DNA from: Erysipelothrix urinaevulpis
GTDB lineage: Bacteria > Bacillota_I > Bacilli_A > Erysipelotrichales > Erysipelotrichaceae
Assembly (NCBI RefSeq): GCF_009828835.1
Contig: NZ_WTTB01000004.1
Location: forward strand, 62,001-126,000
DNA length: 64,000 nt
Direction: 5' to 3'
This document shows, piece after piece, positions 1 to 14,011 of the stretch (positions are counted from its first letter, which is position 1; the number at the start of each line of letters is the position of its first letter). The notes under the pieces are model-generated. The model had not been told where the DNA came from and did not search any database. It saw nothing but the letters and a program-made list of their open reading frames with translations. The position numbers and the translations under genes are program-made.

Positions 1-190
1 TAGAAGTATTCTTTTTTATATTTATCATCTTTGTATAATCGACCATTTTATGTGCAACTACAGATTAGCATTACTACTACCGACAAGCTCCAACTTTTTA
101 GCTACAGTTTAAAATAATGTCCCATAGTCTTCTTAATAGTTTCAAAAAAAAAAAGCTAATTACATTATCTTATATTAATGCAAATAACGA

Positions 191-760
191 TTAAATTTCA
201 TGCCTAAAGCTATATTCTTTACCTGCTCCCAAAGGCTCAACGGATACTTCAACACTACCGAAATCTGCAGGAAATGGCTCATTTTCCTCCCCGCTTATTA
301 ATACTTCAATTATAAAATAATTTTCAGTCTCATCTAAGTAAATACGGCCCAATGTTTTATATTTTTTTTGAATTTTAAAGTAACTGTCGATAATTTCTAA
401 AGTCTTAGATAAATCATTAATCGCATTCATTTCCCATTTATCTAGACTTGATAAAATGATGTAGTTTATTTGGAGATTATTAACTGTATTTAAAAATTTT
501 GAATACTTTATATCAGTCTTATATAAACAGAAATAAGGTATAAGTATAACTATTTCGTAGTAAACTATATCTGAGCATAATTCAATAAAACTAAATCCAT
601 AATTATATTGATCTTTAATGATTAATAATACAGCAATAAGTCGATAAATAATAAAAACGTATCTTGTACGTGAAAAATTTTTATTTCTTGAAAAATAATA
701 GAAAAAATATAATGAAAAAATGTAAATAGTGGTTTCTAAAAGCATTAAAAACAATTCCAT
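191..760 (-). CDS. Small membrane protein, possible bacteriocin immunity protein (copy 2)
   Basis: This 189-residue protein has hydrophobic segments over roughly residues 1-20, 35-50 and 60-80, followed by a soluble C-terminal half of about 105 residues. I do not recognise a family. Size and layout (N-terminal membrane segments, then a soluble tail) match the 183-residue product at 2103-2654, with a similar central stretch around N-x-L/S-Q-I-N/S-Y and a region rich in I/E/K before the tail, so the two look like distant paralogues. It is the last gene of the bacteriocin operon, separated from the rest by an IS3 remnant. A GAGG-type ribosome binding site lies 5-10 bases before the ATG. Position after a bacteriocin gene suggests immunity, but that is inference from context only. 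Confidence 0.5.
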   Translation of the reverse strand: MELFLMLLETTIYIFSLYFFYYFSRNKNFSRTRYVFIIYRLIAVLLIIKDQYNYGFSFIELCSDIVYYEIVILIPYFCLYKTDIKYSKFLNTVNNLQINYIILSSLDKWEMNAINDLSKTLEIIDSYFKIQKKYKTLGRIYLDETENYFIIEVLISGEENEPFPADFGSVEVSVEPLGAGKEYSFRHEI

Positions 761-826
761 AAAGGACCTCTTTTCTTAAAGATGCTGAAGTGATAATGGA
801 ATGTCAACCTTGTTGTTGACACTCAT

Positions 827-1570
827 CTATATAACATTTTCTAAACGATACTGTACAGGCGTTAAGTAATTTAACGTTTGATGGTATCGTTTATTATTAA
901 ACCACCACACATACACTGACAACTCTTGTTTCAATTGCTGTGGTGTTTCGAACCTATTTGGATAAATAAACTCTGTTTTTATTGACTTAAAGGTCGCTTC
1001 AGCGACCGCATTATCATATGGTACTCCAGTTTCACTCAGTGATCTGGATATCCCAAATATATTAATGAGGTCTTCTATAAGAGAACTCTTAAACTTCATG
1101 CCTCTATCACTATTGAAGTATTGCACATTGTTTAAACTTCCATTAACTGTTGCGAATGCTTCTTTTACGAGCTGGGCCGTTTTTCTTGGACCTGCACTGT
1201 AGCCTATTATTTCCTACCCCAACGTAGGTGAGCTCACTTACGATGACTTCTTTTTGCTTTCTACCATTGAACTCTTGATTAACGATGTTCATGATTGCTC
1301 TCGGTTAACATTTTGCCTTTCTGGCTTGAACTGAACTACTGTATAACGTGATACAAGGCCTTCTTCTGCCATGATATGACCAATTCTACGTCGTGATAAA
1401 TTAATCCCTTGTTCCTGACAAGCACGCTTAATTTTGCGGGTACCATAGATTTGATTACTTTCATGAAATATCTTTATGACTAAGTCTGTATGAATATCTT
1501 TTTTCTTGGAGAAGTCTTTATCTCTATATTTATAATATCCGGATCTACTAATCTCTAAAATTCTACACAT
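827..1570 (-). pseudogene. IS3-family transposase OrfB, broken
   Basis: The N-terminal part (1289-1570) has the HTH_21 region with the I-Y-G-T-R-K-I motif. The C-terminal part has the integrase core with S-D-R-G and the catalytic Glu in A-V-A-E-A-T. Between them the reading frame fails twice. Near 1287 the frame shifts after N-R-E-Q-S, and the matching sequence N-I-V-N-Q-E-F-N-G-R-K continues in another frame. Near 1216 about 40-50 bases seem to be missing, and the frame moves again before E-I-I-G-Y-S-A-G-P-R-K. The first catalytic Asp, normally in S-D-L-T-Y, is replaced by Glu (S-E-L-T-Y). Three separate lesions make this an inactive remnant. Confidence 0.88.
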
Positions 1571-1605
1571 CTCGCTGACTGGATACTTGTGTTCATTTTA
1601 TTTCA

Positions 1606-1911
1606 TTACTTTGATTTTCGTCCCATAATCAGCGTCGCTTGCTTTAAAATATCGACCTCCATTCTAAGTTTTTGATTTTCTTCACGGAGTTTTCTTGACT
1701 CATCTATAGATTCTTTATTATCTACAGTAACATCATCATTTGAATTAGATCCATACTTTTTTTCTCCACTGATATATCGATGCGGGGACCAATCATACTC
1801 ATCAATTAGTTCAGCAGGAGATTTTCCTGACTCATACAAAGAAACCATTTGTTTCTTAAAATCTTCACTGTAAGTTCTTCGTTTCTTTGAACTCATAGTA
1901 TCATTCCTCAC
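1606..1911 (-). CDS. IS3-family transposase OrfA
   Basis: The 101-residue product has the N-terminal helix-turn-helix of IS3 OrfA proteins (R-R-T-Y-S-E-D-F-K-K-Q-M-V) and a C-terminal leucine-zipper-like segment (R-K-L-R-E-E-N-Q-K-L-R-M-E-V-D-I-L-K-Q-A). OrfA binds the IS ends and is joined to OrfB by programmed frameshifting in active members. Residues 6 onward (Met at 1896) may be the true start. The frame is intact although its OrfB partner is dead, so it could still bind inverted repeats of any active relative elsewhere. Confidence 0.85.
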   Translation of the reverse strand: MRNDTMSSKKRRTYSEDFKKQMVSLYESGKSPAELIDEYDWSPHRYISGEKKYGSNSNDDVTVDNKESIDESRKLREENQKLRMEVDILKQATLIMGRKSK

Positions 1912-2102
1912 TTACTCTCATTATAACATTTCGTTATATAGAGAAGTGTCTACCTGAGTGTAACCTTTCCACAGTTCAAATAATTATATTGCGATAATCA
2001 AACATTATTAATTATTACGATATAATTATTTGTTTTGTTGATCAAAGTGTGGCCCATTCTTATCAGAATTATTATCATTTTTGATTAGTCATCGATTTAT
2101 TT

Positions 2103-2654
2103 CTATAAGAATACAGTAATTTCAATTCCGTTTTTATATTGATCTATTTGTATTCTTAAATTTTCTTTATTAAAATCTAAATGGATTCGTTTTGCTTTTT
2201 CACCAATAATCCAAATTGTAATTTTTTCTTTACCTATATATCCTATATTAAGAAGTATTGGTGAAGTTATAATTTCATTTTCAACTACTTTAAGAGCTTC
2301 AATTACATCATAACAATCAACTTCTTCTAACTTGCTATATGATGTACTTAAAAAATAATTAATTACACTTGAGTTAATTTGATAGTATAATCTCTTTTTT
2401 TTCTTATCTTGATAATAGGTTCTACATAAAAAATATATATACGATAATTGTAGGTATGTAAAATACAGCACAAATTCGTAAGATATTTCATTTTTAAAAA
2501 TTGACGTGAATAGCAATAGTAATAACAACAATTGTAGCACACGTGCATATAGCTTTGTAATATTGAAATTTATATTTCTTAAAATAAAATATATTAAAGT
2601 TAGTAACTTTTCAATCACAAATAATTTAATAAAAACAACTAAATAATATTGCAT
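2103..2654 (-). CDS. Small membrane protein, candidate bacteriocin immunity protein (copy 1)
   Basis: This 183-residue protein has hydrophobic N-terminal segments at about residues 5-25, 38-52 and 58-80, then a basic stretch (D-K-K-K-K-R) and a soluble C-terminal region. No known family is recognised. It starts 50 bases after the bacteriocin stop codon, with AGGAG six bases before the ATG, and a strong hairpin (2669-2699) fills the gap. Bacteriocin genes of the double-glycine class are normally followed by a cognate immunity gene, usually a small membrane protein, so immunity is the leading guess. The 189-residue protein at 191-760 looks like a diverged second copy. Confidence 0.6.
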   Translation of the reverse strand: MQYYLVVFIKLFVIEKLLTLIYFILRNINFNITKLYARVLQLLLLLLLFTSIFKNEISYEFVLYFTYLQLSYIYFLCRTYYQDKKKKRLYYQINSSVINYFLSTSYSKLEEVDCYDVIEALKVVENEIITSPILLNIGYIGKEKITIWIIGEKAKRIHLDFNKENLRIQIDQYKNGIEITVFL

Positions 2655-2668
2655 AATAGTCTCCTAGA

Positions 2669-2699
2669 AATCATTTAGGAATTTAATCCCTAAATGATT
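2669..2699 (-). terminator. Hairpin between bacteriocin and immunity-like gene
   Basis: An 11-base-pair perfect stem (AATCATTTAGG pairing with CCTAAATGATT) with a 9-base loop lies between the bacteriocin stop codon and the next ribosome binding site. No T-run follows it on the minus strand, so it is more likely an mRNA-stabilising or attenuating hairpin than a full terminator. It could give more precursor mRNA than downstream mRNA. Confidence 0.6.
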
Positions 2700-2703
2700 G
2701 ATT

Positions 2704-3051
2704 TTACAATTTAATGTTGTACCCCGCTTTATTTCCTAGCCAAACAGCTCCTGCATATAGTGCAGTAACCACAAGTATACCTGCTAATGCAGAAGTTAGA
2801 GCTACAGTAACAAATGAACCAAATGTTCCTTTTAGTATTATTGCTTTTGCTATGGGTATAGCTTTTGAAGCAATTACACTTGCAACTTTAGCCAAAGATG
2901 CACCCGCTAATTCGCTGATAATTTTTCCACCAACAAACATTAGAGCTCCATGTAAAACGGCTTTATTTATTCTGAAACTTCTACCGCCATCCAAATACAT
3001 CATTTCTTCCTGATCTAACACTTCATAATTCATTGGCATTACTAATTCCAT
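2704..3051 (-). CDS. Bacteriocin precursor with double-glycine leader
   Basis: The 115-residue product has a leader of about 23 residues ending in Gly-Gly (E-E-M-M-Y-L-D-G-G), with the spaced hydrophobic and acidic residues recognised by C39 peptidases. Cleavage would leave a mature peptide of about 92 residues, rich in Ala, Gly, Val, Ile and Lys, with no cysteine and at least two strongly hydrophobic helix-like stretches (about residues 33-70 and 76-103). That fits an unmodified, pore-forming class II peptide, though it is longer than most class IIa/b members. GGAGG lies nine bases before the chosen ATG; Met5 and Met7 are alternatives. Upstream genes encode its peptidase-transporter and adaptor. 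Target range is unknown. Confidence 0.8.
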   Translation of the reverse strand: MELVMPMNYEVLDQEEMMYLDGGRSFRINKAVLHGALMFVGGKIISELAGASLAKVASVIASKAIPIAKAIILKGTFGSFVTVALTSALAGILVVTALYAGAVWLGNKAGYNIKL

Positions 3052-3157
3052 AATATTAATCCTCCTTTTTTTATATACTTAATATTATGTGTCATAAGAT
3101 AAACGAAATCTATATATACATCTTGCTCTATTTCCAAGCATCACCTCCTTTAAGTTT

Positions 3158-4606
3158 TCAATTTTTCAAGTTAAGCATATTAAGCATCCAGTCTAAATAT
3201 GTTTCTTTTTCGTAGACTATTCTTGCTTCAACCGGCATCGATGAAATAATTTCGATTGTCTCATCTTTGCTTTTTAAAATATAAGAATCCGAGTTTATTT
3301 TAACCCTATATAGAAGCATATTGCCTTCTTGAGACTCCTGGGAAATTGTTCCTGAATCTATAAATACAAGTTTCCCTTTTAACGTGCCAAACTTTGTCGA
3401 ATTAACTCCATTAACCGCTATATTTACATCATCATTTAAAGATATCTTCGAAATATCCGAAGCTAAAATATAGGCTTCAATAATGAACTTATCGATGTCT
3501 TGAGTAGAAACATCCGCAATAACTTGATTTTGCTGGAGTGAACTTCCAACCCTCATGGGATTTACATAATGTATAACTCCATCATGTGTAGCTTTAATTT
3601 GATATGTTTCTTTTTGTTCTAAAGAAAGTTTCAAGTTTGATTCTAGTTCAGTAATTTTTGTCTCAACTTGACTTCGATTTTTACCGAGTTCCATCATTAA
3701 CTGAGATTTCATTTGGGATGTTTGATTCATTGGGTTTTCAAACTGGTCTTTTAAAGAATCAAGTTCTTCTTTCATACCTTTAATTTCGTTAATTTTATTT
3801 TCGAGTTCTATCTCTAAATCACTCATTTCAATAATTTGGGTTTCAATTTGTTCCAAGTCATTTTGATGTTTGTTATCTAAATCTTTATATTTCTGTAAAC
3901 TCTTTTCAATTTCTGTTTTCTTATCTTCGTCTTGTTCTTGAGTAAATTCTTCGCCTAATTCATTAATCTTCTTCTGAGTGTTTTTTATATTCTTCTTTAT
4001 TTCATTTTTTTTTATTCTATATCCTGAAGACTTAAATCTATGAATGTCATTTTCCAAATCTTTAACTTCTTGAGATACTTTACTAAGATGTTTCTCTTTA
4101 TTTTTGATTTTCTTCGACTCAATATTATCAGAAAAATTATCAGATTCTTTTTGTTGTAAGTAATATTCCATATAACCAAAATATTCTTGTTCTAATCCTG
4201 AATTTTTCATGTAATTAACAGAATTAGTTAAAGACTCTTGATACTTATCCATTGCGTTGACCTTTTCATATGCCTGTTCCAATTGCTCAATGATTACTTT
4301 CTCTTGTAATGATTCTTTTCCATCAGATACTACAAGCAGAACATCATTTTCTTTTACTGTAGATCCTTCGCTTTTCATTACTTTCGTAACCATTCCATTG
4401 ACATTTGAAGAAATATACTGAGCATCACTCCCTCTAACAACACCCTGTGCCTTTACTATATAGGTTTTTTTAATAATGCTTGAAGCAACAAGTGAAGCTA
4501 TCAATAGAAATCCAATAAAAATAGAGAAATATGTTCCAAATTTTGGTGGTTCCTTATCAAAGAATATTCGACTATCTCTAAGTTCGTTTTTTGAATACAA
4601 CTTCAT
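3158..4606 (-). CDS. HlyD-type bacteriocin export adaptor
   Basis: The 482-residue protein has one N-terminal membrane segment (about residues 26-46), a short biotinyl/lipoyl-like region (V-V-R-G...V-T-K-V-M-K-S-E-G), a long charged coiled coil (about residues 140-335) and a C-terminal beta-barrel-like part. This is the layout of the membrane-fusion/accessory proteins that work with C39-peptidase ABC transporters in Gram-positive bacteriocin export (LcnD/MesE type). It overlaps the preceding gene by four bases, so translation is probably coupled, and it lies just upstream of the precursor gene. Confidence 0.88.
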   Translation of the reverse strand: MKLYSKNELRDSRIFFDKEPPKFGTYFSIFIGFLLIASLVASSIIKKTYIVKAQGVVRGSDAQYISSNVNGMVTKVMKSEGSTVKENDVLLVVSDGKESLQEKVIIEQLEQAYEKVNAMDKYQESLTNSVNYMKNSGLEQEYFGYMEYYLQQKESDNFSDNIESKKIKNKEKHLSKVSQEVKDLENDIHRFKSSGYRIKKNEIKKNIKNTQKKINELGEEFTQEQDEDKKTEIEKSLQKYKDLDNKHQNDLEQIETQIIEMSDLEIELENKINEIKGMKEELDSLKDQFENPMNQTSQMKSQLMMELGKNRSQVETKITELESNLKLSLEQKETYQIKATHDGVIHYVNPMRVGSSLQQNQVIADVSTQDIDKFIIEAYILASDISKISLNDDVNIAVNGVNSTKFGTLKGKLVFIDSGTISQESQEGNMLLYRVKINSDSYILKSKDETIEIISSMPVEARIVYEKETYLDWMLNMLNLKN

Positions 4607-5106
4607 AGTGTTTTTACCGGAACAAATAAGTCCATTATTAAGAGTTCTTCTTTTTCTTCAACGATTATGGAGTAAGTAACATCACTTGAAATGAGTTCTT
4701 TTTCATAGAAATGAAGATTTATCTTGTCATGAGCGAAATTTGAATATTGTGGGTGGTCAGAAAATCTAACGTATACACAATGTTCAGCAGTTAGTTTATC
4801 ATAGGTTTTGTATATATTTTTATACTGAGTATAATCATGTGCTTGGATCATAAGATCATAATTTGTTGTTAAATAACCTTCATCGCTTATATTTGTTCCA
4901 AAGTTTTTTGTGATTAAGGGACCAAATCCTTGTACTTTCAATACGTCAAGTTTGTTGATGAATCTATTTATTTCATCTTCTAAAGAATCCAAGGAAATAT
5001 CCCTCAATTCATGAACTAAAACATTTTTTAACACTAATTTTTTATTTTCTAATACTTCTAATTTAGCCATAAGTGATTTCTTCTCCTTCATAATTGTGTT
5101 CATCAT
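4603..5106 (-). CDS. Stand-alone GyrI/DUF5085-like protein within the exporter operon
   Basis: The 167-residue product starts with a helical, coiled-coil-like segment (residues 5-50) and continues into a region that reads like a GyrI/SHS2 effector-binding fold: G-F-G-P-L-I-T-K-N-F, later H-C-V-Y-V-R-F, and a final T-Y-S-I-I-V-E-E-K-E-E-L-L-I-M-D-L-F-V-P-V. There is no helix-turn-helix, membrane segment or signal peptide. DUF5085-type and BmrR-type domains have this pattern, but the match is from memory and weak. The gene overlaps the transporter gene by 44 bases and the adaptor gene by four, so it is made together with the export machinery. Role unknown; ligand sensing, chaperoning of the precursor or accessory immunity are possible. 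Confidence 0.55.
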   Translation of the reverse strand: MMNTIMKEKKSLMAKLEVLENKKLVLKNVLVHELRDISLDSLEDEINRFINKLDVLKVQGFGPLITKNFGTNISDEGYLTTNYDLMIQAHDYTQYKNIYKTYDKLTAEHCVYVRFSDHPQYSNFAHDKINLHFYEKELISSDVTYSIIVEEKEELLIMDLFVPVKTL

Positions 5107-7309
5107 ATTTATTTTTAACTTCTTCTATATCCATATGTGACATTTGCATATTGATCATCGATGCATATTTACCATTTAAAGCCATAAGTTCATGATGATT
5201 GCCACTCTCAATAACTTTTCCTTTATCAAGTAAGTATATATAATCACTATTCATTATTGTCGAAAGTCTATGAGCGATAATAATTGTTGTTTTCGATGTA
5301 ATTTTATTGAATATCAAATCATGTATTTTTCTTTCGCTAAAAGAATCTAGATTAGAGGTTGCTTCATCAAAAAGGAAAATCTCTGGTTCTTTTAAAAGTG
5401 CTCTTGCAATAGCTAATCGCTGTTTTTCACCACCAGATAGATTACTTCCACCTTCTTCAATGTATGATCCGTAGCGATTCGGCATGCTTTCGATAAAATC
5501 AGACGCGCCAGATAATTTGCATGCAGTTACAATTTCTTCATAGGTAGCAAGATTATTACCTACTTTTAAGTTGTCAATGATTGTTCCAGAAAACAATTCA
5601 ATATTTTGAGGAATATAAGCAATCTTATTTCTTAAGAATTGATGTCCAATGTCTTTAATGTTGTATCCCGTTAGTGTTATTTTCCCAGATTCATTTTCAA
5701 TGAACTTCATAATAAGTCTGGCTATCGTACTTTTACCTGCACCACTTTCCCCTACAAAAGCAACTTTTTTTCCACTTGGAATTGTTAAATTTAAATCGTT
5801 TATTACAGGTGGTCGTGATCCATAAGAAAAACTAACATTTCCAAAAACAATATCTCCATTAAGTGGAATATTAGTCAATAGATTTTTTGACTCGTCCTCT
5901 TCAACATCCAAGCTCATCAACTCACCTAAGCGTTTCATTGAAATTTGCGCTTCTTGAAATGTTATTTGTAATGAAACTAAATTTTGAATTGGTTCTGTAA
6001 AATATTGACTTAATGTTTGAAATACTAAAAGATCACCAATACTCATTTTTCCATCTATAATAAATAGTGCTCCTACCCCCATAAACAACACATTTCCTAA
6101 CGCACCAACAAAATTTGCAAGAAACCCTTGAAAATTTTGTAGAATACCTACTTTGTATTCAAGTTTCAATGCATTTACATATCTTGATTCTAGTTTACTT
6201 ATTTGAGAAGATTCATCTGACATTGATTTAATCGTCTCGATATTTTCTACTGATTCAATTAGTTGGGCATTCAACATTGCACTTGATTCCATTTGTTCAT
6301 AATTATATTTTTTATAAGGTTTCTTAAAGACATAAATTAAAATTATATTAATAATTACTATCAAGAGTAAAATGCCGAATAATTTCGAATTCAAATTCCA
6401 AAGTACAATTGCAGATATTACCGAAAGGAGTACATCCATAACTAACGAGATTGATAAAGAGGTGAATATTTCTTTAATTGTCATAGCATCTTGAAAACGC
6501 GTTAAGATATCTCCAACTTTTCTTGTAATAAAGAAAAAGTAAGGTAATCTTATAATATGATTGTAATACCCAAGTAATAAAGGTATATCAATTTTTCTTG
6601 ACAAATATAAAAGCACATGTTGACGAAATGCCGAAAGTAAATTTTGAACTAGCGAAACAAGAATAAAAAACAATAAAAATACATACAGACTCTTCTTTAA
6701 CTGAAATGGAATAATTTCATCCATTAATACTTTAGAAAACAAACTAGATAAAATCCCTAATAGACTTAATAATAACGAAATCAATATTGTTGTAAATAGA
6801 AGTCTCTTTTGTGGAAGTATCAAAACTTTAAATACTTCAAACATTGATTTGTCTTTTAAAGTTGACTCCTCAAATTCGCTCGTTGGAATGAGTACAATAA
6901 AAACGCCAGTAAACCACGAATCAAAATCTTCGTACGTTTGCTTACTGACTTCATTTGCTGGATCCGATATTATAAACTCATTCTTCTTAGTGATTTTGTT
7001 AAGCACAACAAAATGGTTAAGACCCGATTCTGTCTTAACTTGAGCAATTGCTGGTAATGTGATCTCTCTGGTTAAATCTTTTGTTGAAGTTCTAACCGCC
7101 TTAACATTGAACTTAAGCTTTTCAAAACCCTCAACGATACCTTTTACACTGGTACCATAAGCATCAGTTCCAATTATTTCCCTAACCTTCATGAGTGATA
7201 TTTCTTTTTTGTATTTTAAAAGTATCGTAGAAATTACTGCTGCAGCACAATCAGACGAATCGTGCTGTTTAACATTTGGATACTTTTTTAGTCTTATTTT
7301 TGATAACAT
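5063..7309 (-). CDS. C39-peptidase bacteriocin ABC transporter
   Basis: The 748-residue protein has the three-part layout of peptidase-containing ABC exporters. Residues 10-140 are a C39 cysteine peptidase with Gln15 and Cys21 in Q-H-D-S-S-D-C, and the His in N-H-F-V-V-L followed by the Asp of S-D-P. Six membrane segments follow at about 165-450. The nucleotide-binding domain has Walker A G-E-S-G-A-G-K-S-T, signature L-S-G-G-E-K-Q-R and Walker B F-L-F-D-E-A-T. It cuts the leader after Gly-Gly and exports the mature peptide. The usual Gly after the catalytic Cys is Ala here. The nearest Shine-Dalgarno sequence is 15 bases upstream, with a tiny overlapping ORF in between. Confidence 0.93.
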   Translation of the reverse strand: MLSKIRLKKYPNVKQHDSSDCAAAVISTILLKYKKEISLMKVREIIGTDAYGTSVKGIVEGFEKLKFNVKAVRTSTKDLTREITLPAIAQVKTESGLNHFVVLNKITKKNEFIISDPANEVSKQTYEDFDSWFTGVFIVLIPTSEFEESTLKDKSMFEVFKVLILPQKRLLFTTILISLLLSLLGILSSLFSKVLMDEIIPFQLKKSLYVFLLFFILVSLVQNLLSAFRQHVLLYLSRKIDIPLLLGYYNHIIRLPYFFFITRKVGDILTRFQDAMTIKEIFTSLSISLVMDVLLSVISAIVLWNLNSKLFGILLLIVIINIILIYVFKKPYKKYNYEQMESSAMLNAQLIESVENIETIKSMSDESSQISKLESRYVNALKLEYKVGILQNFQGFLANFVGALGNVLFMGVGALFIIDGKMSIGDLLVFQTLSQYFTEPIQNLVSLQITFQEAQISMKRLGELMSLDVEEDESKNLLTNIPLNGDIVFGNVSFSYGSRPPVINDLNLTIPSGKKVAFVGESGAGKSTIARLIMKFIENESGKITLTGYNIKDIGHQFLRNKIAYIPQNIELFSGTIIDNLKVGNNLATYEEIVTACKLSGASDFIESMPNRYGSYIEEGGSNLSGGEKQRLAIARALLKEPEIFLFDEATSNLDSFSERKIHDLIFNKITSKTTIIIAHRLSTIMNSDYIYLLDKGKVIESGNHHELMALNGKYASMINMQMSHMDIEEVKNKYDEHNYEGEEITYG

Positions 7310-7320
7310 AAAAATCGCAT
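7294..7320 (-). CDS. Eight-codon upstream ORF overlapping the exporter start
   Basis: A GGGGGGAGG sequence at 7325-7333 is well spaced for an ATG at 7320, which opens an eight-codon frame (M-R-F-L-C-Y-Q-K, stop). This frame overlaps the exporter start codon at 7309 in another frame. The exporter ATG itself is 15 bases from that ribosome binding site, which is far. Translation of the short frame could therefore tune or couple exporter translation. This is a reading of the sequence, with no evidence of expression. Confidence 0.35.
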   Translation of the reverse strand: MRFLCYQK

Positions 7321-7380
7321 TTAACCTCCCCCCGGAATTAAACTACAATTACATATTCACATTTATTTTAAACTATTTTA

Positions 7381-7409
7381 AATTTAGCATACATTACTTA
7401 GACTGTCAA
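7381..7409 (-). promoter_or_regulatory. Promoter of the bacteriocin operon
   Basis: On the minus strand TTGACA (7404-7409) and TAAATT (7381-7386) are separated by 17 bases. This places transcription start near 7374, about 65 bases before the exporter ATG. It is the only good sigma-A-like site upstream of the operon. Confidence 0.6.
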
Positions 7410-7973
7410 ATGTTTTCTATTTTTGATTGTGTAAAATGAATGGGGGAATACAAAAATAGCGATTCCGTAGATTTCGCAAGTTGCTGGTAGTTTTTTCTCA
7501 TCACATGGAGAGGGTTTACCGAATCAATAATAACACTCATACCTAAATTCAGGTTCTCCTTATGCCAGGTTCATTATGGCTTCGTATCGTTCTCCTCTTA
7601 ATCCTGTATCCACGTTAAGTTTATTAAAAGGTACCACTATACAATCTAACCGGAGGTAAACAAGTGATAATTCTTTTGCTAAGCCTTCGCTACCGTTGTT
7701 TTTCTTCTGCCCGGAAGCTCGGCCTTTATTATAAGTAAAGGACTTTTATTTCCAAGTTTAACGTTTGGTTGCATTCGTATCATAGCTCTTCTTTCATAAC
7801 ATTTTACTAAACATACTACGTAGCATTATTTTTTGATTTAATTGATTTCATTTTCTAATCCTTTGGATTAATATTACTTTTGTACCTTTTTTATGCTTAC
7901 TATATTCATTCAATTTGTAGACTTGTGTTATAAACATATCATAATTTATAACCCCTTTTAAATTACTTACCTA
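7410..7973. other. Unassigned stretch, possible remnant of a mobile element or structured RNA
   Basis: No intact gene is present. Bases 7445-7810 look unlike the AT-rich flanks: they are richer in G and C and, on the minus strand, carry coding-like fragments in more than one frame (for example N-V-D-T-G-L-R-G-E-R-Y-E-A-I-M-N-L-A and K-P-S-P-C-D-E-K-K-L-P-A-T-C) interrupted by stops. The mix of short purine-rich blocks and frame-broken pieces could be a decayed mobile element such as a group II intron piece, or a structured RNA. I cannot decide between these. Bases 7810-7970 are plain AT-rich spacer. Confidence 0.3.
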
Positions 7974-8005
7974 TAAAAAAAACAAGATGAATTGATTCAT
8001 CTTGT
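7974..8005 (-). terminator. Terminator after tRNA-Gln
   Basis: An 11-base-pair perfect stem (ACAAGATGAAT with ATTCATCTTGT, two-base loop) is followed on the minus strand by a T-run. It lies 18 bases after the tRNA-Gln gene. Confidence 0.85.
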
Positions 8006-8023
8006 CGTTATTTATACATTGGC

Positions 8024-8094
8024 TGGGCCACCTGGGATCGAACCAGGGAATGTCACAGTCAAAGTGTGATGCCTTACCGCTTGGCTATGGCCCA
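8024..8094 (-). tRNA. tRNA-Gln (UUG)
   Basis: A 71-base cloverleaf can be folded: acceptor TGGGCCA with TGGCCCA, anticodon stem TCACA with TGTGA and loop CTTTGAC (anticodon TTG), T-arm CCTGG-TTCGATC-CCAGG. The 3' CCA is encoded only as the last three bases of the acceptor strand, so the terminal CCA must be added afterwards, unlike the five tRNAs at 11.4-11.8 kb. Confidence 0.95.
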
Positions 8095-8159
8095 ATGTCT
8101 TTTCCTCTTGCTGCGAATTTAATTATAACACAAGGAAAAATGAATGCAAGGCTTTTTTA

Positions 8160-8203
8160 AAACTTTTTTAAAAGAATAGGCCTCAAGTTGATTTGAGGCC
8201 TAT
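8160..8203 (-). terminator. Terminator of the sugar ABC ATPase gene
   Basis: The stem ATAGGCCTCAA (8176-8186) pairs with TTGAGGCCTAT (8193-8203), just past the stop codon on the minus strand, followed by a T-rich stretch. Confidence 0.8.
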
Positions 8204-8209
8204 AGAATG

Positions 8210-9316
8210 CTATTTAATAACGTTTTCTGTTTCTTTATCAAAGAAGTGTCCCTTGCTAATATTGAATGCTAACTCAACTTTTTGACCTGGTGAGTATGAT
8301 TCATTGACACCCACCTTTGCAATAAATTCATGGTCGCCAATTGTAACATACAACATTGTTTCAGCTCCTAATAATTCCGCAACTGTAACTTCAGCATTGA
8401 CAAGTGATTCAGTCATAGAATCTAACACTAATTGCTCATTGTGAATATCTTCTGGTCTAATTCCAAAGATGACATCTTTACCAACGTATCCTTGTTCCTC
8501 CAAGACTGAATATTTTCCTTCTGGAATTCTTAATTTAACACCATCTGTCGTAATCAGATGATGATCTTCGATCTTGCAATCAAAGAAATTCATTGCTGGT
8601 GCACCAATGAATCCTCCAACAAAAACGTTGTTTGGATTATTATAGACTTCTTTTGGTGAACCAATTTGTTGGACAAATCCACCTTTCATAATAACAATTC
8701 TGTCAGCCATTGTCATCGCTTCAGTTTGGTCATGGGTAACATAAATTGTTGTTGTTTCTAAACGATGGTGTAGTTTTGTGATTTCTGCACGCATAGCAAC
8801 ACGCAATTTAGCGTCTAAGTTACTCAATGGCTCATCCATCAAGAAGACTTCTGCATCACGAACAATCGCACGACCTAAGGCTACACGTTGACGTTCTCCA
8901 CCAGATAACGCGGATGGCTTACGATCAAGATATGTTGCTAATCCTAAAATATCTGCTGCATTTTTAACAGCCTTATCAATCTCATCTTTAGGAACTTTAC
9001 GGATTTTTAATCCAAAAGCCATATTATCATAGACTGTCATATGTGGATAAAGTGCATAGTTTTGGAAAACCATGGCAATATCACGATCTTTAGGTTCTAC
9101 ATCATTAACAATACGATCGTTAATATAGATTTCACCTTCTGTAATATCTTCTAATCCAGCAATCATACGAAGAGTTGTTGATTTACCACAACCAGATGGA
9201 CCAACAAACACGATAAATTCTTTATCTTCAATCTCTAAATTAAAATCTGTTACTGAATAATTTGGGTTTTTATCATAACGCTTATAAATATTTTTTAATA
9301 CAATTTTCTTTGTCAT
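8210..9316 (-). CDS. ugpC: Sugar ABC transporter ATPase, MsmX/UgpC type
   Basis: The 368-residue protein has Walker A G-P-S-G-C-G-K-S-T, Q-loop in F-Q-N-Y-A-L-Y-P-H, signature L-S-G-G-E-R-Q-R and Walker B F-L-M-D-E-P-L-S-N-L-D, then a C-terminal TOBE/OB regulatory domain of about 130 residues (G-I-R-P-E-D-I near 293). Length and layout match the shared ATPases (MsmX, UgpC, MalK) that power several carbohydrate importers. No permease gene is nearby, consistent with a multi-task ATPase that serves transporters encoded elsewhere. It is divergent from the regulator at 9411; a cre-like sequence lies in the shared promoter region, so catabolite control is plausible. Confidence 0.93.
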   Translation of the reverse strand: MTKKIVLKNIYKRYDKNPNYSVTDFNLEIEDKEFIVFVGPSGCGKSTTLRMIAGLEDITEGEIYINDRIVNDVEPKDRDIAMVFQNYALYPHMTVYDNMAFGLKIRKVPKDEIDKAVKNAADILGLATYLDRKPSALSGGERQRVALGRAIVRDAEVFLMDEPLSNLDAKLRVAMRAEITKLHHRLETTTIYVTHDQTEAMTMADRIVIMKGGFVQQIGSPKEVYNNPNNVFVGGFIGAPAMNFFDCKIEDHHLITTDGVKLRIPEGKYSVLEEQGYVGKDVIFGIRPEDIHNEQLVLDSMTESLVNAEVTVAELLGAETMLYVTIGDHEFIAKVGVNESYSPGQKVELAFNISKGHFFDKETENVIK

Positions 9317-9346
9317 AAAATATCCTCCCTATGTAATTCCATTATA

Positions 9347-9360
9347 ATAAAGCGCTACCA
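9347..9360 (-). promoter_or_regulatory. Possible cre site between ugpC and the regulator
   Basis: ATAAAGCGCTACCA agrees with the cre consensus TGWAARCGYTWNCW at 12 of 14 positions (the first two differ). It overlaps TATAAT-like sequences on both strands (9341-9348) in the 94-base gap between the divergent genes, so CcpA bound there could repress either promoter. Confidence 0.4.
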
Positions 9361-9410
9361 TATATGATATAGTTAAAGTGACCAAAGTTATTGTGCAAGG
9401 AGTAATAAAT

Positions 9411-10235
9411 ATGAAAATTAAAGATTTAAAAAAAGTTTACCCAACGGCCATTGAATCAACAATGAGTAGTCCTAACCCTGCTCTTTTTAACTATTATGAC
9501 GGATTTAAATATTTGCATATATATAAGGATACAATGAATGAGAGCGAACAAAAAATTCTTACACTCTTAATGCAACCTGAAGAATCTCGATCGGTATGGT
9601 ATCAATATTTGATTCAAGACTCCAATATTCTTCCAGAAATAGATGGTGATTTTATGACCATTCATTTTCATGTAAAAAACTTAAATGAACAACAGGATGC
9701 TTGGTTAACATCATTTGAATCTTTCTTCCCTGGTGCTCGTGATACTTTTTTTGTGGATCGTGAGTATGGTGTTCTTATTGCTGATCAATATAATCAAAAC
9801 ATGGATCAGCTTTATGGTTTTATCTCGATGTTAGACGATGACTTCTCAACAACAACAACCTTATTTATTGGTATGATGTGTTCAGTTCATGTGCTTCGTG
9901 ATGTTTTCAATGAAGAACGAATTCTATTTTCAAAAAATATTAAAAGCGAAAGAGTCATTCAATACATTGATGCTTATGTTCCTTATTATATAGCCCCTAG
10001 TTTAAGTGAGAGCATCATCGCCCAAGAAATTAAACAGAAACTTGGACATGATGATGAATTGATTGCTCTTATTTCATCGTTATGGAAACATCAAGGGAAC
10101 ATTAGTGCAACGGCCGATGAGCTTTTCACCCACCGTAATACTATTAATTATCGTATTGATAAAGTAAGTAAAGATACAGGTCTTAACTTGAGAAACATGC
10201 AACAATTATTACTTTGTTATTTGTTAACACTTTAA
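9411..10235 (+). CDS. PucR/CdaR-type transcriptional regulator
   Basis: The 274-residue protein has no recognised sensor domain over its first 200 residues and ends in a PucR-type helix-turn-helix (L-W-K-H-Q-G-N-I-S-A-T-A-D-E-L, then H-R-N-T-I-N-Y-R-I-D-K-V). That C-terminal motif is typical of CdaR/PucR proteins, which sense metabolites and activate catabolic genes. The start is placed at 9411 because AGGAG lies eight bases before this ATG; an open frame extends upstream without a good ribosome binding site. It sits between a sugar ATPase and pta, so its targets may be these neighbours. Confidence 0.75.
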   Translation: MKIKDLKKVYPTAIESTMSSPNPALFNYYDGFKYLHIYKDTMNESEQKILTLLMQPEESRSVWYQYLIQDSNILPEIDGDFMTIHFHVKNLNEQQDAWLTSFESFFPGARDTFFVDREYGVLIADQYNQNMDQLYGFISMLDDDFSTTTTLFIGMMCSVHVLRDVFNEERILFSKNIKSERVIQYIDAYVPYYIAPSLSESIIAQEIKQKLGHDDELIALISSLWKHQGNISATADELFTHRNTINYRIDKVSKDTGLNLRNMQQLLLCYLLTL

Positions 10236-10237
10236 CT

Positions 10238-10255
10238 TGTGCAAACTAACACAAA
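10238..10255 (+). promoter_or_regulatory. Rex-like operator upstream of pta
   Basis: TTGTGCAAACTAACACAA resembles the Rex operator TTGTGAANNNNTTCACAA: both TTGTG and CACAA arms are exact, three inner positions differ. It lies 15 bases before a TATAAT (10271-10276), so it would cover the -35 region of the pta promoter. Rex is an NADH-responsive repressor of fermentation genes. Candidate only. Confidence 0.4.
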
Positions 10256-10298
10256 TTTCCTCAATTCATGTATAATAAGGAATGTATAGGAGGAAATT

Positions 10299-11276
10299 AT
10301 GGATTTATTTGAAGGTTTAAAACAAAAGATCGTTGGGAAAAAGATCAAAGTTGTTTTCCCCGAAGGAAATGATGAGAGAATTATCGGTGCGGCAGTTCGT
10401 TTAGCAGCAGATGACTTAGTGCATCCTATTGTACTTGGTGATGAAAAAGAAATTAATGAAATTGCTGCGAATATTGGGTTCATGACAGATCGTCTTGAAA
10501 TTATTAACCCTGAAACATATGACAATGACAAAAAAGAAGCAATGGTTAATGCTTTAGTTGAACGTCGTAATGGTAAACTAGATGCTGCAGGTGCTGCAGA
10601 ATGGATTAAAAATGTTAACTATTTCGGTACAATGTTAACTTATATGGGTGAAGCTGATGCCATGGTATCAGGAGCAATTCATTCAACAGGTGATACAGTA
10701 CGCCCTGCATTACAAATTATTAAAACAAAACCTGGTATTAGTCGAACAAGTGGTGCGTTTATTATTTTTAAACGTACTGAAACTTATTTATTTGCCGACT
10801 GTGCAATTAACATTGATCCAAATGCTCAAGAATTGGCTGAAATTGCAGTTGAGAGTGCAAAGACAGCTGAATTATTTGATATTGAACCAATTGTTTCATT
10901 AATGAGTTTCTCAACAAAAGGATCCGCAGCTGGTCCTCAAGTTGATAAAGTTGTGGAAGCAACAAAAATTGCTCAAGAGTTAGCTCCTGAGTATAAAATT
11001 GATGGTGAATTACAATTTGATGCCTCATTTGTTCCTGCTGTTGCTGGTTTAAAAGCTCCAGGTTCAGATGTTGCTGGAAAAGCACGTGTCTTTATCTTCC
11101 CTGAAATTCAATCAGGTAACATCGGATATAAGATTGCTCAACGTCTTGGTGGTTATGAAGCAATTGGACCAATCTTACAAGGTTTAAACAAACCAGTGTC
11201 TGACTTATCACGTGGATGTGTTGAGGAAGATGTTTACAAACTTGCGATCATTACCGCAGCTCAAACATTGATCTAA
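10299..11276 (+). CDS. pta: Phosphate acetyltransferase
   Basis: The 325-residue protein matches the short, one-domain Pta of Bacillota from end to end: V-V-F-P-E-G-N-D-E-R near the start, S-G-A-I-H-S-T-G-D-T-V-R-P-A-L around residue 128, and G-K-A-R-V-F-I-F-P-E-I-Q-S-G-N-I-G-Y-K near the end. It interconverts acetyl-CoA and acetyl phosphate, the step before acetate kinase makes ATP in mixed-acid fermentation. AGGAGG is six bases before the ATG and TATAAT is at 10271-10276. A single-gene unit closed by a terminator; no acetate kinase gene is in the window. Confidence 0.96.
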   Translation: MDLFEGLKQKIVGKKIKVVFPEGNDERIIGAAVRLAADDLVHPIVLGDEKEINEIAANIGFMTDRLEIINPETYDNDKKEAMVNALVERRNGKLDAAGAAEWIKNVNYFGTMLTYMGEADAMVSGAIHSTGDTVRPALQIIKTKPGISRTSGAFIIFKRTETYLFADCAINIDPNAQELAEIAVESAKTAELFDIEPIVSLMSFSTKGSAAGPQVDKVVEATKIAQELAPEYKIDGELQFDASFVPAVAGLKAPGSDVAGKARVFIFPEIQSGNIGYKIAQRLGGYEAIGPILQGLNKPVSDLSRGCVEEDVYKLAIITAAQTLI

Positions 11277-11299
11277 AAGCCTAGAAATAGGCTTTTTTA
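11276..11299 (+). terminator. Terminator of pta
   Basis: AAGCCTA pairs with TAGGCTT across a four-base loop, followed by TTTTT, directly after the pta stop codon. Confidence 0.85.
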
Positions 11300-11350
11300 T
11301 TAGGTTTTAAGAGCTTTTTAAAAAGTTTTTGAAATAATTGCATTTTAGTG

Positions 11351-11380
11351 TTGACACTTCATTGATACTCATGGTATATT
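11351..11380 (+). promoter_or_regulatory. Promoter of the tRNA cluster
   Basis: A perfect TTGACA (11351-11356) and TATATT (11375-11380) are 18 bases apart, with TG just before the -10 box. The first tRNA starts 32 bases further on. Confidence 0.85.
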
Positions 11381-11412
11381 ATTAAGGCGTTAAGGAAACG
11401 CATCAAGCAAAT

Positions 11413-11488
11413 GGAGATTTAGCTCAGTTGGGAGAGCATCTGCCTTACAAGCAGAGGGTCAGCGGTTCGAGCCCGTTAATCTCCACCA
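11413..11488 (+). tRNA. tRNA-Val (UAC)
   Basis: A 76-base cloverleaf with encoded CCA; acceptor GGAGATT/AATCTCC, anticodon stem TCTGC/GCAGA with loop CTTACAA (anticodon TAC), T-loop TTCGAGC. First of five tRNAs behind one promoter. Confidence 0.97.
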
Positions 11489-11491
11489 TTT

Positions 11492-11567
11492 GCCGACTTA
11501 GCTCAACTGGTAGAGCAACTGATTTGTAATCAGTAGGTTGGGGGTTCAAGTCCTCTAGTCGGCACCA
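11492..11567 (+). tRNA. tRNA-Thr (UGU)
   Basis: A 76-base cloverleaf with encoded CCA; acceptor GCCGACT/AGTCGGC, anticodon stem ACTGA/TCAGT with loop TTTGTAA (anticodon TGT), T-loop TTCAAGT. Confidence 0.97.
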
Positions 11568-11589
11568 TTTAAAATATATGACATTTATC

Positions 11590-11673
11590 GGGGAGATAGC
11601 GAAGTGGCTAAACGCGGGTGACTGTAAATCATCTCCTTAGGGTTCGGCGGTTCGAATCCGTCTCTCCCCACCA
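11590..11673 (+). tRNA. tRNA-Tyr (GUA)
   Basis: An 84-base class II tRNA with a long variable arm and encoded CCA; acceptor GGGGAGA/TCTCCCC, anticodon loop CTGTAAA (anticodon GTA), T-loop TTCGAAT. Confidence 0.97.
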
Positions 11674-11676
11674 TGG

Positions 11677-11752
11677 GACCCGTTAGCTCAGTCGGTAGAG
11701 CAACTGACTTTTAATCAGTGGGTCGTAGGTTCAATTCCTACACGGGTCACCA
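11677..11752 (+). tRNA. tRNA-Lys (UUU)
   Basis: A 76-base cloverleaf with encoded CCA; acceptor GACCCGT/ACGGGTC, anticodon stem ACTGA/TCAGT with loop CTTTTAA (anticodon TTT), T-loop TTCAATT. Confidence 0.97.
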
Positions 11753-11763
11753 TTCTGTCATAT

Positions 11764-11837
11764 GCGGGTGTAGTTTAATGGCAAAACTTCAGCCTTCCAA
11801 GCTGACTATGGGAGTTCGATTCTCCTCACCCGCTCCA
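11764..11837 (+). tRNA. tRNA-Gly (UCC)
   Basis: A 74-base cloverleaf with encoded CCA; acceptor GCGGGTG/CACCCGC, anticodon stem CAGCC/AGCTG-like with loop TTCCAAG region giving anticodon TCC, T-loop TTCGATT. Last tRNA of the cluster. Confidence 0.96.
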
Positions 11838-11850
11838 TTAAACATTGAAC

Positions 11851-11873
11851 ACAACCAATTTGGTTGTTTTTTT
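11851..11873 (+). terminator. Terminator of the tRNA cluster
   Basis: ACAACCA pairs with TGGTTGT, followed by a run of T, 13 bases after tRNA-Gly. Confidence 0.85.
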
Positions 11874-11895
11874 ATTATATTTTAAAGGAGTTACT

Positions 11896-12246
11896 ATGAA
11901 AATACTTGAACAATTACTTATAATATTTATATTCTCAATTATTGGAGATTTGATAAGTTCCGTTTTACCTTTTCCAATACCTGGAAGCATCATTGGACTT
12001 ATTTTACTTTTTGTCTCTTTAAATCTAAAGTTGTTGAAACTCGAAGATATTAGCGGAAGTGGTGAGTGGCTTAAAAATAACATGGCAATTTTGTTTGTGC
12101 CTTTGTCCGTTGGCATCATGAACTATTTCGATTTATTGATCGATAACGCTATAGCTTTAACACTGATCACAGTTCTTTCAACACTTGTAACTTATTTTGT
12201 GAGTGCAAAGGTCAGTGAATATATCTTAAAGAAAGAGGTCCAGTAA
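11896..12246 (+). CDS. lrgA: LrgA/CidA-family membrane protein
   Basis: The 116-residue protein has four hydrophobic segments and the family pattern F-P-I-P-G-S-I-I-G-L-I-L-L-F and W-L-K-N-N-M-A-I-L-F-V-P-L-S-V-G-I-M. LrgA proteins are holin-like; with LrgB they have been tied to murein hydrolase control, cell death and, in several Firmicutes, pyruvate uptake. The start at 11896 is chosen because AAAGGAG lies six bases upstream; the longer frame starts inside the tRNA terminator. Its stop overlaps the lrgB start (TAATG). Confidence 0.9.
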   Translation: MKILEQLLIIFIFSIIGDLISSVLPFPIPGSIIGLILLFVSLNLKLLKLEDISGSGEWLKNNMAILFVPLSVGIMNYFDLLIDNAIALTLITVLSTLVTYFVSAKVSEYILKKEVQ

Positions 12247-12938
12247 TGATAGAACATCCTTTATTCGGTATTTCGTTAACCATTCTAGTCTTTAGCCTAT
12301 TTAGGAAACTGCAGGTTAAAACTAAAATCAGTCTATTAAATCCACTGCTATTCTCATCCATCTTAATCATTCTAATACTCATTGTCTTTAATATTTCATA
12401 TGATGATTATAATGGTGGTGCCAAGATTTTTACATCGCTTATTGGTCCCGCTACCGTTGCATTAGCAATCCCTTTGTATAAACATCAAGATTTATTCTAT
12501 AAGAATATTAAACTAATCTTAATAAGCGTTTTAAGCAGTGCTATTGCACATGGTTTGGTCATTACATTATTAGTTTACCTCTTCAAATTAGACCTTAAAT
12601 TAGGGGCTAGTTTGATCCCTAAATCAGTCACAACAGCTATTGCGGGTGATGTTAGCACTGCATTAGGAGGCTACACAAACGTTACCGTCGCAATTGTCAT
12701 TATTACAGGAATTATAGGTGCAAGCTTAGCACCTTTGCTTAACAAAGTCTTTAATATCAACTCTCCTATTGCTCAAGGACTAGCCTTAGGATCCAGCGCC
12801 CATGCCGTAGGCACATCAAAAGCAATTGAACTGGGTGAGACACAGGAAACAATGGCCACCTTGGCTTTGATTTTAACGGGTATTCTAACCGTATTCCTTT
12901 CACCATTTATCTACTCTGCTCTCATGTATATCATTTAA
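12246..12938 (+). CDS. lrgB: LrgB-family membrane protein
   Basis: The 230-residue, highly hydrophobic protein has about seven membrane segments and the LrgB signature S-L-I-P-K-S-V-T-T-A-I-A and A-L-G-S-S-A-H-A-V-G-T-S-K-A. It overlaps lrgA by one base and would act with it as a membrane unit. Neighbouring pta and the pyruvate-uptake role reported for LrgAB relatives make a link to overflow metabolism attractive but unproven. No lytS/lytR regulator pair is nearby. Confidence 0.92.
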   Translation: MIEHPLFGISLTILVFSLFRKLQVKTKISLLNPLLFSSILIILILIVFNISYDDYNGGAKIFTSLIGPATVALAIPLYKHQDLFYKNIKLILISVLSSAIAHGLVITLLVYLFKLDLKLGASLIPKSVTTAIAGDVSTALGGYTNVTVAIVIITGIIGASLAPLLNKVFNINSPIAQGLALGSSAHAVGTSKAIELGETQETMATLALILTGILTVFLSPFIYSALMYII

Positions 12939-13006
12939 AACACCAACATTTGATGGGTTAATATCTAACTTTAGATATAGCCTTTCAACGTGTTGGTGTT
13001 TTTTTA
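12937..13006. terminator. Convergent terminator between lrgB and the regulator gene
   Basis: AACACCAACA (12939-12948) pairs with TGTTGGTGTT (12991-13000) around an inner hairpin (ATATCTA/TAGATAT). T-runs follow on the plus strand, and the structure also faces the end of the minus-strand gene at 13004. Confidence 0.75.
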
Positions 13007-14011
13007 ATATTCAATATTCTTTAATGCTAAGAAAGCCATCTGCTCATAATCATATTTTTTTATAATTGACATCGCAATTCCAGATGATATATGATCAAAC
13101 GCTTCTTTTTCTTTAATATGGGATTTAAACTCAAACATTTCTTTATAATCATGACTCATAATAAATAAACGATTGGAGTCATTAACACAAACCAGTACAG
13201 TTTTCGTGTTTAATAATTTTTTCATCTCTTTAAAAACACTCGACTCGTGTGTATCAACTAAACTAACCTTCTTTAATACCTCGATTGAACAATGAACAAC
13301 ATTTGCCTTTTCCATTAATAAAATCATTTTTTCATTATCAAAACCTTCGTAAAAACTCAACATTATTTTCTTGTCAGAATATCTCTCCAAAGCATATTCC
13401 GTTGCCTTAATATTAAAGTAGGAACCGATTAGGATCAAACTCGAATCTCTTAACAATCTATCCTGATTTAACAAATGATTAATAGGTAACGCATCCATCG
13501 CCTTATTATCATGAATCACTTGATGATAATCCCCTTCTCGGTCTAAACTCATACATAAATTATTGTAATCTTCTTTGGAAAAATATGAATACTTTAGATC
13601 AATCCCAATGCTGCTGCACCAGTTTTGAACTAATGTCCCAAAAAAACTATTTGGAACCGTAGTGATTAAATGACTTGTTATATTCTCTTGATGAAAATTT
13701 TGAGAAATTGTCATTCCACTTCCTTTAACACTAATATCGATTGTTTCTTTATTGCTTTCAACACTTAACATCCCATTTATTTCAACAATACTCTCTCCTA
13801 AAATGACAATATAACCTGTATCCTGGACAACATAACTTCTCCCTACAATTATCCCTTTACTCATTAAATTTGATATATGAACAGACACGGATGATCGAGA
13901 CATGTTAGCCCTGTAAGCAATTTCTTCTTGAGATAACATTGGATTTTCTAATAAAATATGATAAATTAACTTTTCTTTATTTGTCATATTATTTGAGTCA
14001 TTTATTTTCAT
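13004..14011 (-). CDS. HTH regulator with degenerate PfkB-kinase domain
   Basis: Residues 10-60 form a winged helix-turn-helix (N-P-M-L-S-Q-E-E-I-A-Y-R-A-N-M-S-R-S-S-V). The remaining 270 residues follow the order of HTH-fused PfkB/ribokinase proteins: I-V-I-L-G-E-S at the start of the fold, K-G-S-G-M-T-I-S-Q-N, then T-T-V-P-N-S-F-F-G. The catalytic GAGD motif near the C-terminus is not there; the matching place reads F-D-H-I-S-S-G-I-A-M-S-I. It is therefore probably a pseudokinase that binds but does not phosphorylate a sugar or nucleoside. It is the last gene of the sugar operon and likely controls it. Confidence 0.68.
   Translation of the reverse strand: MKINDSNNMTNKEKLIYHILLENPMLSQEEIAYRANMSRSSVSVHISNLMSKGIIVGRSYVVQDTGYIVILGESIVEINGMLSVESNKETIDISVKGSGMTISQNFHQENITSHLITTVPNSFFGTLVQNWCSSIGIDLKYSYFSKEDYNNLCMSLDREGDYHQVIHDNKAMDALPINHLLNQDRLLRDSSLILIGSYFNIKATEYALERYSDKKIMLSFYEGFDNEKMILLMEKANVVHCSIEVLKKVSLVDTHESSVFKEMKKLLNTKTVLVCVNDSNRLFIMSHDYKEMFEFKSHIKEKEAFDHISSGIAMSIIKKYDYEQMAFLALKNIEY

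Follow-up and report, generated by a model that had tools for sequence, protein, structure and literature searches.

The DNA studied here, called the window, is a 64,000-nucleotide stretch of Erysipelothrix urinaevulpis contig NZ_WTTB01000004.1 (positions 62,001 to 126,000, forward strand; assembly GCF_009828835.1). It contains a small gene, termed X, between the genes for a C39 peptidase-containing ATP-binding cassette (ABC) transporter (PCAT) and an HlyD-type protein. Comparison of this gene with its homologues suggests, short of proof, that the X protein is built into one exporter family and helps the exporter to recognise the leader that tags its peptides. The genes follow each other on the minus strand in the order PCAT, X, HlyD, double-glycine precursor and two membrane-like proteins. 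G and L numbers are our labels for genomes and loci.

5063..7309, minus strand: PCAT with C39, ABC membrane and ATPase domains (PF03412, PF00664, PF00005 and TIGR01193 above cut-off)
4603..5070, minus strand: X, stand-alone GyrI/duplicated-SHS2 protein of 155 amino acids, RtgX-like (conserved ATG at 5070, predicted fold)
3158..4606, minus strand: HlyD-type accessory/adaptor protein (PF13437 above cut-off; NCBIfam HlyD models below their cut-offs)
2704..3051, minus strand: double-glycine precursor with the 23-amino-acid leader MELVMPMNYEVLDQEEMMYLDGG and a 92-amino-acid hydrophobic cargo with glycine and alanine (leader profile)
2983..3051, minus strand: leader of this precursor, with E-22, L-21, P-18, Y-15, L-12, M-7 and L-4 (compared with the RtgG positions in the accessible text of PMC7018657)

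Gene X, its exporter and its leaders

An earlier note on this DNA had placed an open reading frame at 4603-5106 between the C39 transporter gene and the HlyD gene, and this is where the gene lies, on the minus strand. The call was over-long, since it is the ATG at 5070 that corresponds to the start codon of X homologues. The overlap of 44 bp with the PCAT gene reported there resulted from using the first ATG as the start and is reduced to 8 bp with the start at 5070, while the overlap of 4 bp with the HlyD gene was confirmed. An overlap of exactly 8 bp between PCAT and X was present in 16 of the 20 loci measured (21 loci were given and L079 yielded no row); the remaining four showed gaps of 9 and 18 bp, one overlap of 13 bp and one X without a PCAT directly upstream. 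The X gene is real and not a chance reading frame, because a second copy with 60% identity and the same gene order is present elsewhere in the 1.9 Mb genome and its homologues are spread over Bacillota.

Searches for X were positive in 10 of 194 relatives (11 places), 9 of 392 genomes of the phylum, 10 of 395 genomes of the class and, counting one fragment, 5 of 127 genomes in the S. suis genus; a sixth match in that genus was a DUF5085 gene. Eleven named loci, two from genomes already counted in other draws, came from Stoquefichus, an Erysipelotrichaceae metagenome-assembled genome (MAG), several Bacillus-group species, Streptococcus suis, a Paenibacillaceae MAG, Natronobacillus and Streptohalobacillus, and one further locus from Rossellomorea. 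The genome draws overlap, and counting distinct places gave 32 X loci. At 25 of these 32 loci the cluster includes a PCAT, either intact or broken (broken in L033 and L055), so that the repeated co-occurrence with C39 transporters that the earlier note had proposed to look for is indeed seen across genomes. The seven loci without a clustered PCAT are G004, G007, G186, G322, G541, G656 and L058; X lies at a contig edge in G186 and is a fragment beside a precursor in G656. The most common order was PCAT-X-HlyD, mostly followed by the precursor. The order PCAT-HlyD-X-precursor occurred in G309 and G483, PCAT-precursor-X-HlyD in Neobacillus and PCAT-X-precursor-HlyD in the second Rossellomorea locus. 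For the alignments, the frameshifted X of L015 was represented by a fragment alone and the decayed G159 locus (L037) was left out.

The PCATs linked to X also formed a group of their own. C39 domains were detected in 63 of 188 relatives (68 places), and 30 of these loci were retrieved; omitting five that came from X-positive genomes left 25 to serve as X-less PCATs. In the trees, 20 of the 25 X-linked PCATs were entered, and all 20, together with the PCATs of G186 and G419, whose X status was unknown, fell on one side of a single branch. The initial tree held two X-less rows only. This branch separated the X group from 25 X-less PCATs in the first larger tree (support 97/99) and from 21 X-less PCATs in a revised tree (support 97/95), for which 13 X-less rows were dropped (ten near-copies, three long branches) and nine added, one a piece of 141 amino acids. 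Sampling was uneven, because 20 of the 25 X-less rows come from one family. The window PCAT grouped with the other X-linked PCATs, including those of the rtg-like G667 locus, S. suis and G652. The nearest X-less group consisted of PCATs from the Streptococcus genomes G667, G677, G728 and G717 and one from G419, and is probably of the ComAB/BlpAB type.

A double-glycine precursor with a recognisable leader was present in the fetched stretch at 25 of the 32 X loci, with P-type leaders at 20 and B-type leaders at five. P-18 is shared by the 20 P-type loci by selection, because the leader search pattern required P at -18. The window precursor matched the leader profile with E=1.2e-10 in its own genome; this profile of 16 rows includes the window sequence itself. 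Pfam Bacteriocin_IIc stayed below cut-off (E 0.03). In total, PCAT-X-HlyD modules occur twice in this genome, and five of its precursors share the window-type leader: the one in the window, three in L133 (one ending in AGS instead of DGG) and one in L134; a sixth, partial leader match lies in L135. The cargoes are hydrophobic with small-residue spacings, and the five of this genome showed no clear likeness to each other (raw local scores of 22-40, significance not computed). L133 (G000:C18:66000-74000) is a decayed copy of the operon in which a C39 fragment, the tail of HlyD and three precursors with the shared leader are left, and the body of the PCAT and X are missing.

Full-length matches to the P-type leader (E<1e-8) were found in 5 of 395 class genomes; four of the five are X-positive and the fifth is G419. 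At E<=0.001 the profile matched seven of these 395 genomes, G053 and G005 with partial matches and without X. Of the other six X-positive class genomes, five have B-type leaders and in G159 no leader was recognised. In the S. suis genus, 8 of 127 genomes gave strong matches (E<1e-11), and these eight include all five with X or its fragment: G630, G652, G667 and G748 carry PCAT-X-HlyD, and G656 carries the X fragment. The remaining three, G677, G728 and G717, have strong-leader peptides in rtg-like loci (L111-L113) and no X in the whole genome; no HlyD was seen in the listed stretch, and the C39 PCATs of these genomes lie outside the X group. Some leader match at E<=1, mostly to the part from -17 to -1, was obtained for 49 of the 127 genomes; four of the 49 (E 8e-6 to 4e-4) are X-negative, and in stretches from three of these four (L114-L116) no PCAT or X was seen by eye.

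Five loci (L021, L034, L035, L036, L078) combine a second leader class, such as YAMTLDNSWELMTEDEMYDVNGG, with an X of a second subfamily; two loci with this class also have the order PCAT-HlyD-X. The Rossellomorea precursor at L079:8201-9036 is identical to a streptococcal precursor at 62 of 98 positions, and the X and PCAT of this locus belong to another branch. Its leader ends in EMEYVDGG, as in G487, a neighbour in the PCAT tree, and in G328, which is not in the tree. This locus looks like a natural cargo transfer.

The leader of the window points to a described locus. PMC7018657 describes the pneumococcal rtg locus with a PCAT and an accessory protein, states that leader residues -22 to -18 are required in the substrates, and gives P-18 and Y/L/M/L at -15/-12/-7/-4 for the rtg leaders. 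The window leader carries P-18, Y-15, L-12, M-7 and L-4 and thus matches these positions. The same source leaves the contact of RtgAB with the distal leader motif to future work.

The model of X was confident, with a predicted local distance difference test score (pLDDT) of 92, and predicts a lone duplicated-SHS2/GyrI fold (strand-helix-strand-strand, duplicated); a single-sequence AlphaFold2 model had a pLDDT of 33 and was of no use. In structure comparisons, identity to BmrR, CTR107, CtaZ, SAV2435 and GyrI was about 12% or less. The profile of 15 X proteins matched DUF5085 (PF16895) in hhalign with a probability of 95.4 (E 1.8e-8, 141 columns) and that of 12 proteins with 84.3 (E 7e-6, 138 columns), while 20 shuffled controls reached at most 2.1. 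The GyrI/DUF5085-like fold without a DNA-binding domain that the earlier note had read from the sequence is therefore supported by the model, the structure comparisons and the profile match. Of the two outcomes that this note had named as refuting it, a lack of GyrI/SHS2 similarity and a lack of any other genome with X beside a C39 transporter, neither was found.

X lies outside every curated family and is, by profile, a distant relative of DUF5085. No PF16895 match above the Pfam gathering cut-off was listed for window X, 11 X members or the X of L075, and a PF16895 search of 60 relatives gave one sub-threshold match, in G017 and away from the X of that genome. Pfam gave one sub-threshold match for window X (EDR1, E 0.005) and ten families over the 11 X members, each in one member (best E 0.0013). 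NCBIfam did not match window X and gave two weak matches over 15 members, each to one member only; over 12 members PHROGs gave five weak matches, again each to one member (best E 0.018), and PADLOC was without a match in 12 members. Sequence searches of the PDB with X yielded one match at E 0.34 and afterwards none. A phage or plasmid origin of X was dropped, since two viral-contig scans and two plasmid searches revealed no relative. The X counts exclude the match in G678 (E 8.5e-4), which is a DUF5085 gene; its locus has other DUF5085 genes and an FtsK/SpoIIIE-family gene and was read as type VII. At L076:4443-8800, three DUF5085-like genes lie in a streptococcal locus with an FtsK/SpoIIIE-family gene; one of the three is below cut-off and also weakly GyrI-like by Pfam.

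Functions of DUF5085 proteins are described in the accessible parts of PMC10434224 and PMC12744356. TipE antagonises TelE, a toxin of the type VII secretion system. ExiA/ExiB attach to EsxX at its glycine-zipper region, and ExiB uses for this the cleft between its two helices, which is adapted to protein binding.

Covariation of X with leader, cargo and transporter

Across 20 loci, the similarity of X correlated with that of the leader (r 0.85 for positions -23 to -18 and 0.94 for -16 to -1). When PCAT similarity was controlled for in the 16 loci with a PCAT row, the rank partial r between X and leader was 0.56 and 0.73 for the two parts (permutation p<=0.001). PCAT added about nothing to the leader when X was controlled for (-0.03 and 0.06). 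The partial test was applied to all 16 loci and to three subsets, following a simple test on 20 loci and an unranked test. The X-leader values were 0.33 and 0.58 for 14 P-type loci and 0.45 and 0.69 after removal of near-copies; among the closest 12 loci the value for -16 to -1 was 0.50.

Together with the precedent of TipE and ExiA/ExiB, from which X would most simply be a cytosolic precursor-binding protein, these data are consistent with X as a cytosolic component that is dedicated to an Rtg-type peptide exporter and translated from a gene overlapping its PCAT and HlyD neighbours. X would take hold of the precursor by its double-glycine leader, perhaps with the cleft used for drugs in other GyrI-fold proteins, and would hand it to the C39 domain of the PCAT. 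As a leader-reading adaptor or holdase it could provide selectivity for one leader class and allow one exporter to serve several cargoes. Also in favour of this role are the clustering of X with PCATs and the recurring overlap of 8 bp, the separate PCAT group, the coincidence of X with the P-type leader, the loss of the cargo correlation under control for PCAT, the cargo transfer in L079, the unlike cargoes of the window's genome, the loci L111-L113, in which neither X nor an Rtg-type PCAT nor HlyD was seen, the equal frequencies of rtgX and rtgB against 83% for rtgT and rtgW, and the need of RtgAB for leader residues -22 to -18. We give an even chance to X being a cytosolic adaptor that engages the leader and delivers the precursor to the PCAT. 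More tentatively, X may be the missing reader of the double-glycine leader, a targeting factor that chooses the precursors for the PCAT and in which a drug-binding fold was turned into a peptide receptor. Of the functions considered in the earlier note, guiding the precursor fits best; protection of the producer is a rival with a DUF5085 precedent, and sensing of a ligand is left with the fold only.

Several observations weigh against the adaptor. The covariation was strongest at -16 to -1, whereas a receptor of the distal motif would be expected to show it at -23 to -18, a part for which the partial r among the closest 12 loci was 0.28 (p 0.08). X similarity also correlated with cargo in the simple test of 20 loci (r 0.32, p 0.0004), and this correlation was removed solely by the control for PCAT. 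The analysis was post hoc and small, with loci chosen for having X and a single precursor taken from each. P-18 is absent from the five B-type loci. G419, whose contig begins within HlyD, has a PCAT of the X clade and a P-type leader and may lack X, which was not found. In G322 and G541, X and the precursor are retained with no C39 match (E<=1e-10) in the whole genome. In G007, X lies on a long contig without an adjoining PCAT, in its near-copy G004 X and a precursor are present and the contig ends soon after X, and in L058 X stands alone in 18 kb. C39 domains of other PCATs are known to bind leaders without an X-like partner. For the rtg locus itself, leader recognition is credited to RtgAB in the accessible text of PMC7018657.

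The loci without a PCAT fit a precursor-binding role as well as they fit decay of the cluster; they do not fit a subunit that is purely exporter-bound. Such a structural or regulatory subunit, which would sit on PCAT or HlyD and aid assembly or the ATPase cycle without contacting the substrate, is quite improbable. The gene overlaps on both sides of X and the correlation of 0.95 between X and PCAT similarity across 16 loci would agree with it, as would L012, L017 and L018, in which PCAT-X-HlyD is present and no precursor was seen within the 16-18 kb fetched. However, the leader was tracked better by X than by PCAT, X lies beside the precursor and after HlyD in G309 and G483, and G322 and G541 keep X without any C39 gene.

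The latter two loci, which retain X together with a precursor, would rather agree with a cytosolic shield, a self-immunity chaperone for a hydrophobic and probably membrane-active cargo comparable to TipE and ExiA/ExiB. The profile alignment with DUF5085, the actions of TipE on TelE and of ExiA/ExiB on the glycine-zipper region, the hydrophobic cargoes with their small-residue spacings and the simple X-cargo correlation all speak for it. We nevertheless consider this main rival unlikely, although less so than a purely exporter-bound subunit. The link between X and cargo was gone after control for PCAT (rank partial r 0.08, p 0.31, 16 loci; 0.19, 0.18 and 0.25 in the three subsets, a range of 0.18-0.25 with p 0.09-0.12), and a single X goes with several different cargoes. 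Precursors occur without X in L111-L113, at two loci of the window's genome (L133 and L134; other places in that genome do have X) and, by the Table 2 frequencies given in PMC7018657, in most pneumococcal strains. In addition, TipE is not replaceable by another DUF5085 protein according to the accessible parts of PMC10434224 and PMC12744356.

Finally, sensing of a small molecule in the manner of BmrR, CTR107 or CtaZ, with X gating export or sequestering a ligand, has the fold alone behind it and is very improbable, as identity to these proteins is so low, X has no DNA-binding domain and co-varies with the leader, and the fold does not reveal a ligand, the DUF5085 relatives using it for protein binding.

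How C39 exporters tell sets of double-glycine peptides apart is an open question, and a conserved extra gene inside the exporter group is a direct candidate for substrate discrimination. If X acts as a leader-reading adaptor, X and the DUF5085 proteins of type VII secretion would form a GyrI-fold family that binds exported toxins and peptides before export, and one small fold would link two unrelated secretion routes.

Other features around the operon

Two further products of the region may be immunity proteins, as judged from place and hydrophobicity for the first:

2103..2654, minus strand: membrane-like protein, possible immunity protein (no Pfam/NCBIfam family)
191..760, minus strand: second membrane protein, distantly similar (23% over 166 columns, E 9e-4), possible immunity protein

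The product of 2103..2654 showed weak similarity to a similarly placed protein of L013 (28% over 74 columns, E 7e-7). Between the two genes, at 827-1911 (minus strand), transposase reading frames lie in pieces (Pfam HTH_Tnp_1, HTH_21, rve_2/rve_3), which we take to be IS3-like. Upstream of the operon a tRNA gene is located at 8023-8094 (minus strand; Rfam RF00005), and Rfam gave no match other than this tRNA for positions 1-9400 of the window. In five Bacillus-group operons (L049, L052, L053, L055, L057) HlyD is followed by a protein of 259-277 amino acids that is membrane-like by eye; the one of L049 has no NCBIfam family.

Comparison with known systems

The earlier note regarded X as an undescribed component. 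It is not wholly so, because PMC7018657 lists rtgX in its Table 2 as a "GyrI-like hypothetical protein" with a frequency of 21.1%; in the accessible text of this source rtgX is a table row alone, without a function. The same table gives rtgB as 18.6 intact plus 2.5 disrupted, which equals the frequency of rtgX, and the peptides rtgT and rtgW with 83%. Strain by strain, rtgX and rtgB probably co-occur. No function of X or RtgX was found in the open-licence PMC literature, and GyrI does not occur in the accessible main text of a review that refers to RtgAB.

In pneumococci, the Rgg regulator gene rtgR lies between rtgA and an arginine-synthesis cluster (PMC7018657, accessible text). In the Streptococcus genome G667 (L075), an Rgg-like regulator (HTH_3 above and Rgg_C below cut-off) and an argininosuccinate lyase are followed by PCAT-X-HlyD and peptides with ELVLP leaders; the X of this locus is identical to window X at 65 of 155 positions. 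Among the reading frames at 1-14000 of the window no Rgg-like protein was recognised by eye, and the genome was not searched for Rgg; the sole regulator there, at 13004-14011, is of another type. The window shares with the rtg locus the PCAT with an HlyD/ComB-type partner, double-glycine peptides with P-18/Y-15/L-12/M-7/L-4 and a small GyrI-like protein. Judged by sequence, the window exporter appears to be of the pneumococcal Rtg type, and X probably belongs to the RtgX family, to which it is linked by locus, leader and annotation.

ComAB and BlpAB resemble the window exporter in combining a C39 ABC transporter and an accessory protein with double-glycine substrates. They differ in that no X adjoins them, and in G667 X is present solely in the Rtg-type cluster. 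CTR107, SAV2435, CtaZ and GyrI bind drugs or dyes, differ from X by their identity of about 12% or less, and are not known to have an exporter operon. With DUF5085 proteins, X has in common the fold class (by a Phyre2 prediction in the accessible text of the DUF5085 work), the collinear profile match and the character of a small, soluble protein that partners a secreted toxin. In contrast to them, X was found with C39 exporters or double-glycine peptides and not in EssC/LXG loci, no EssC/LXG-like gene being recognised by eye in the reading-frame lists around the X loci, for which no family scan was made.
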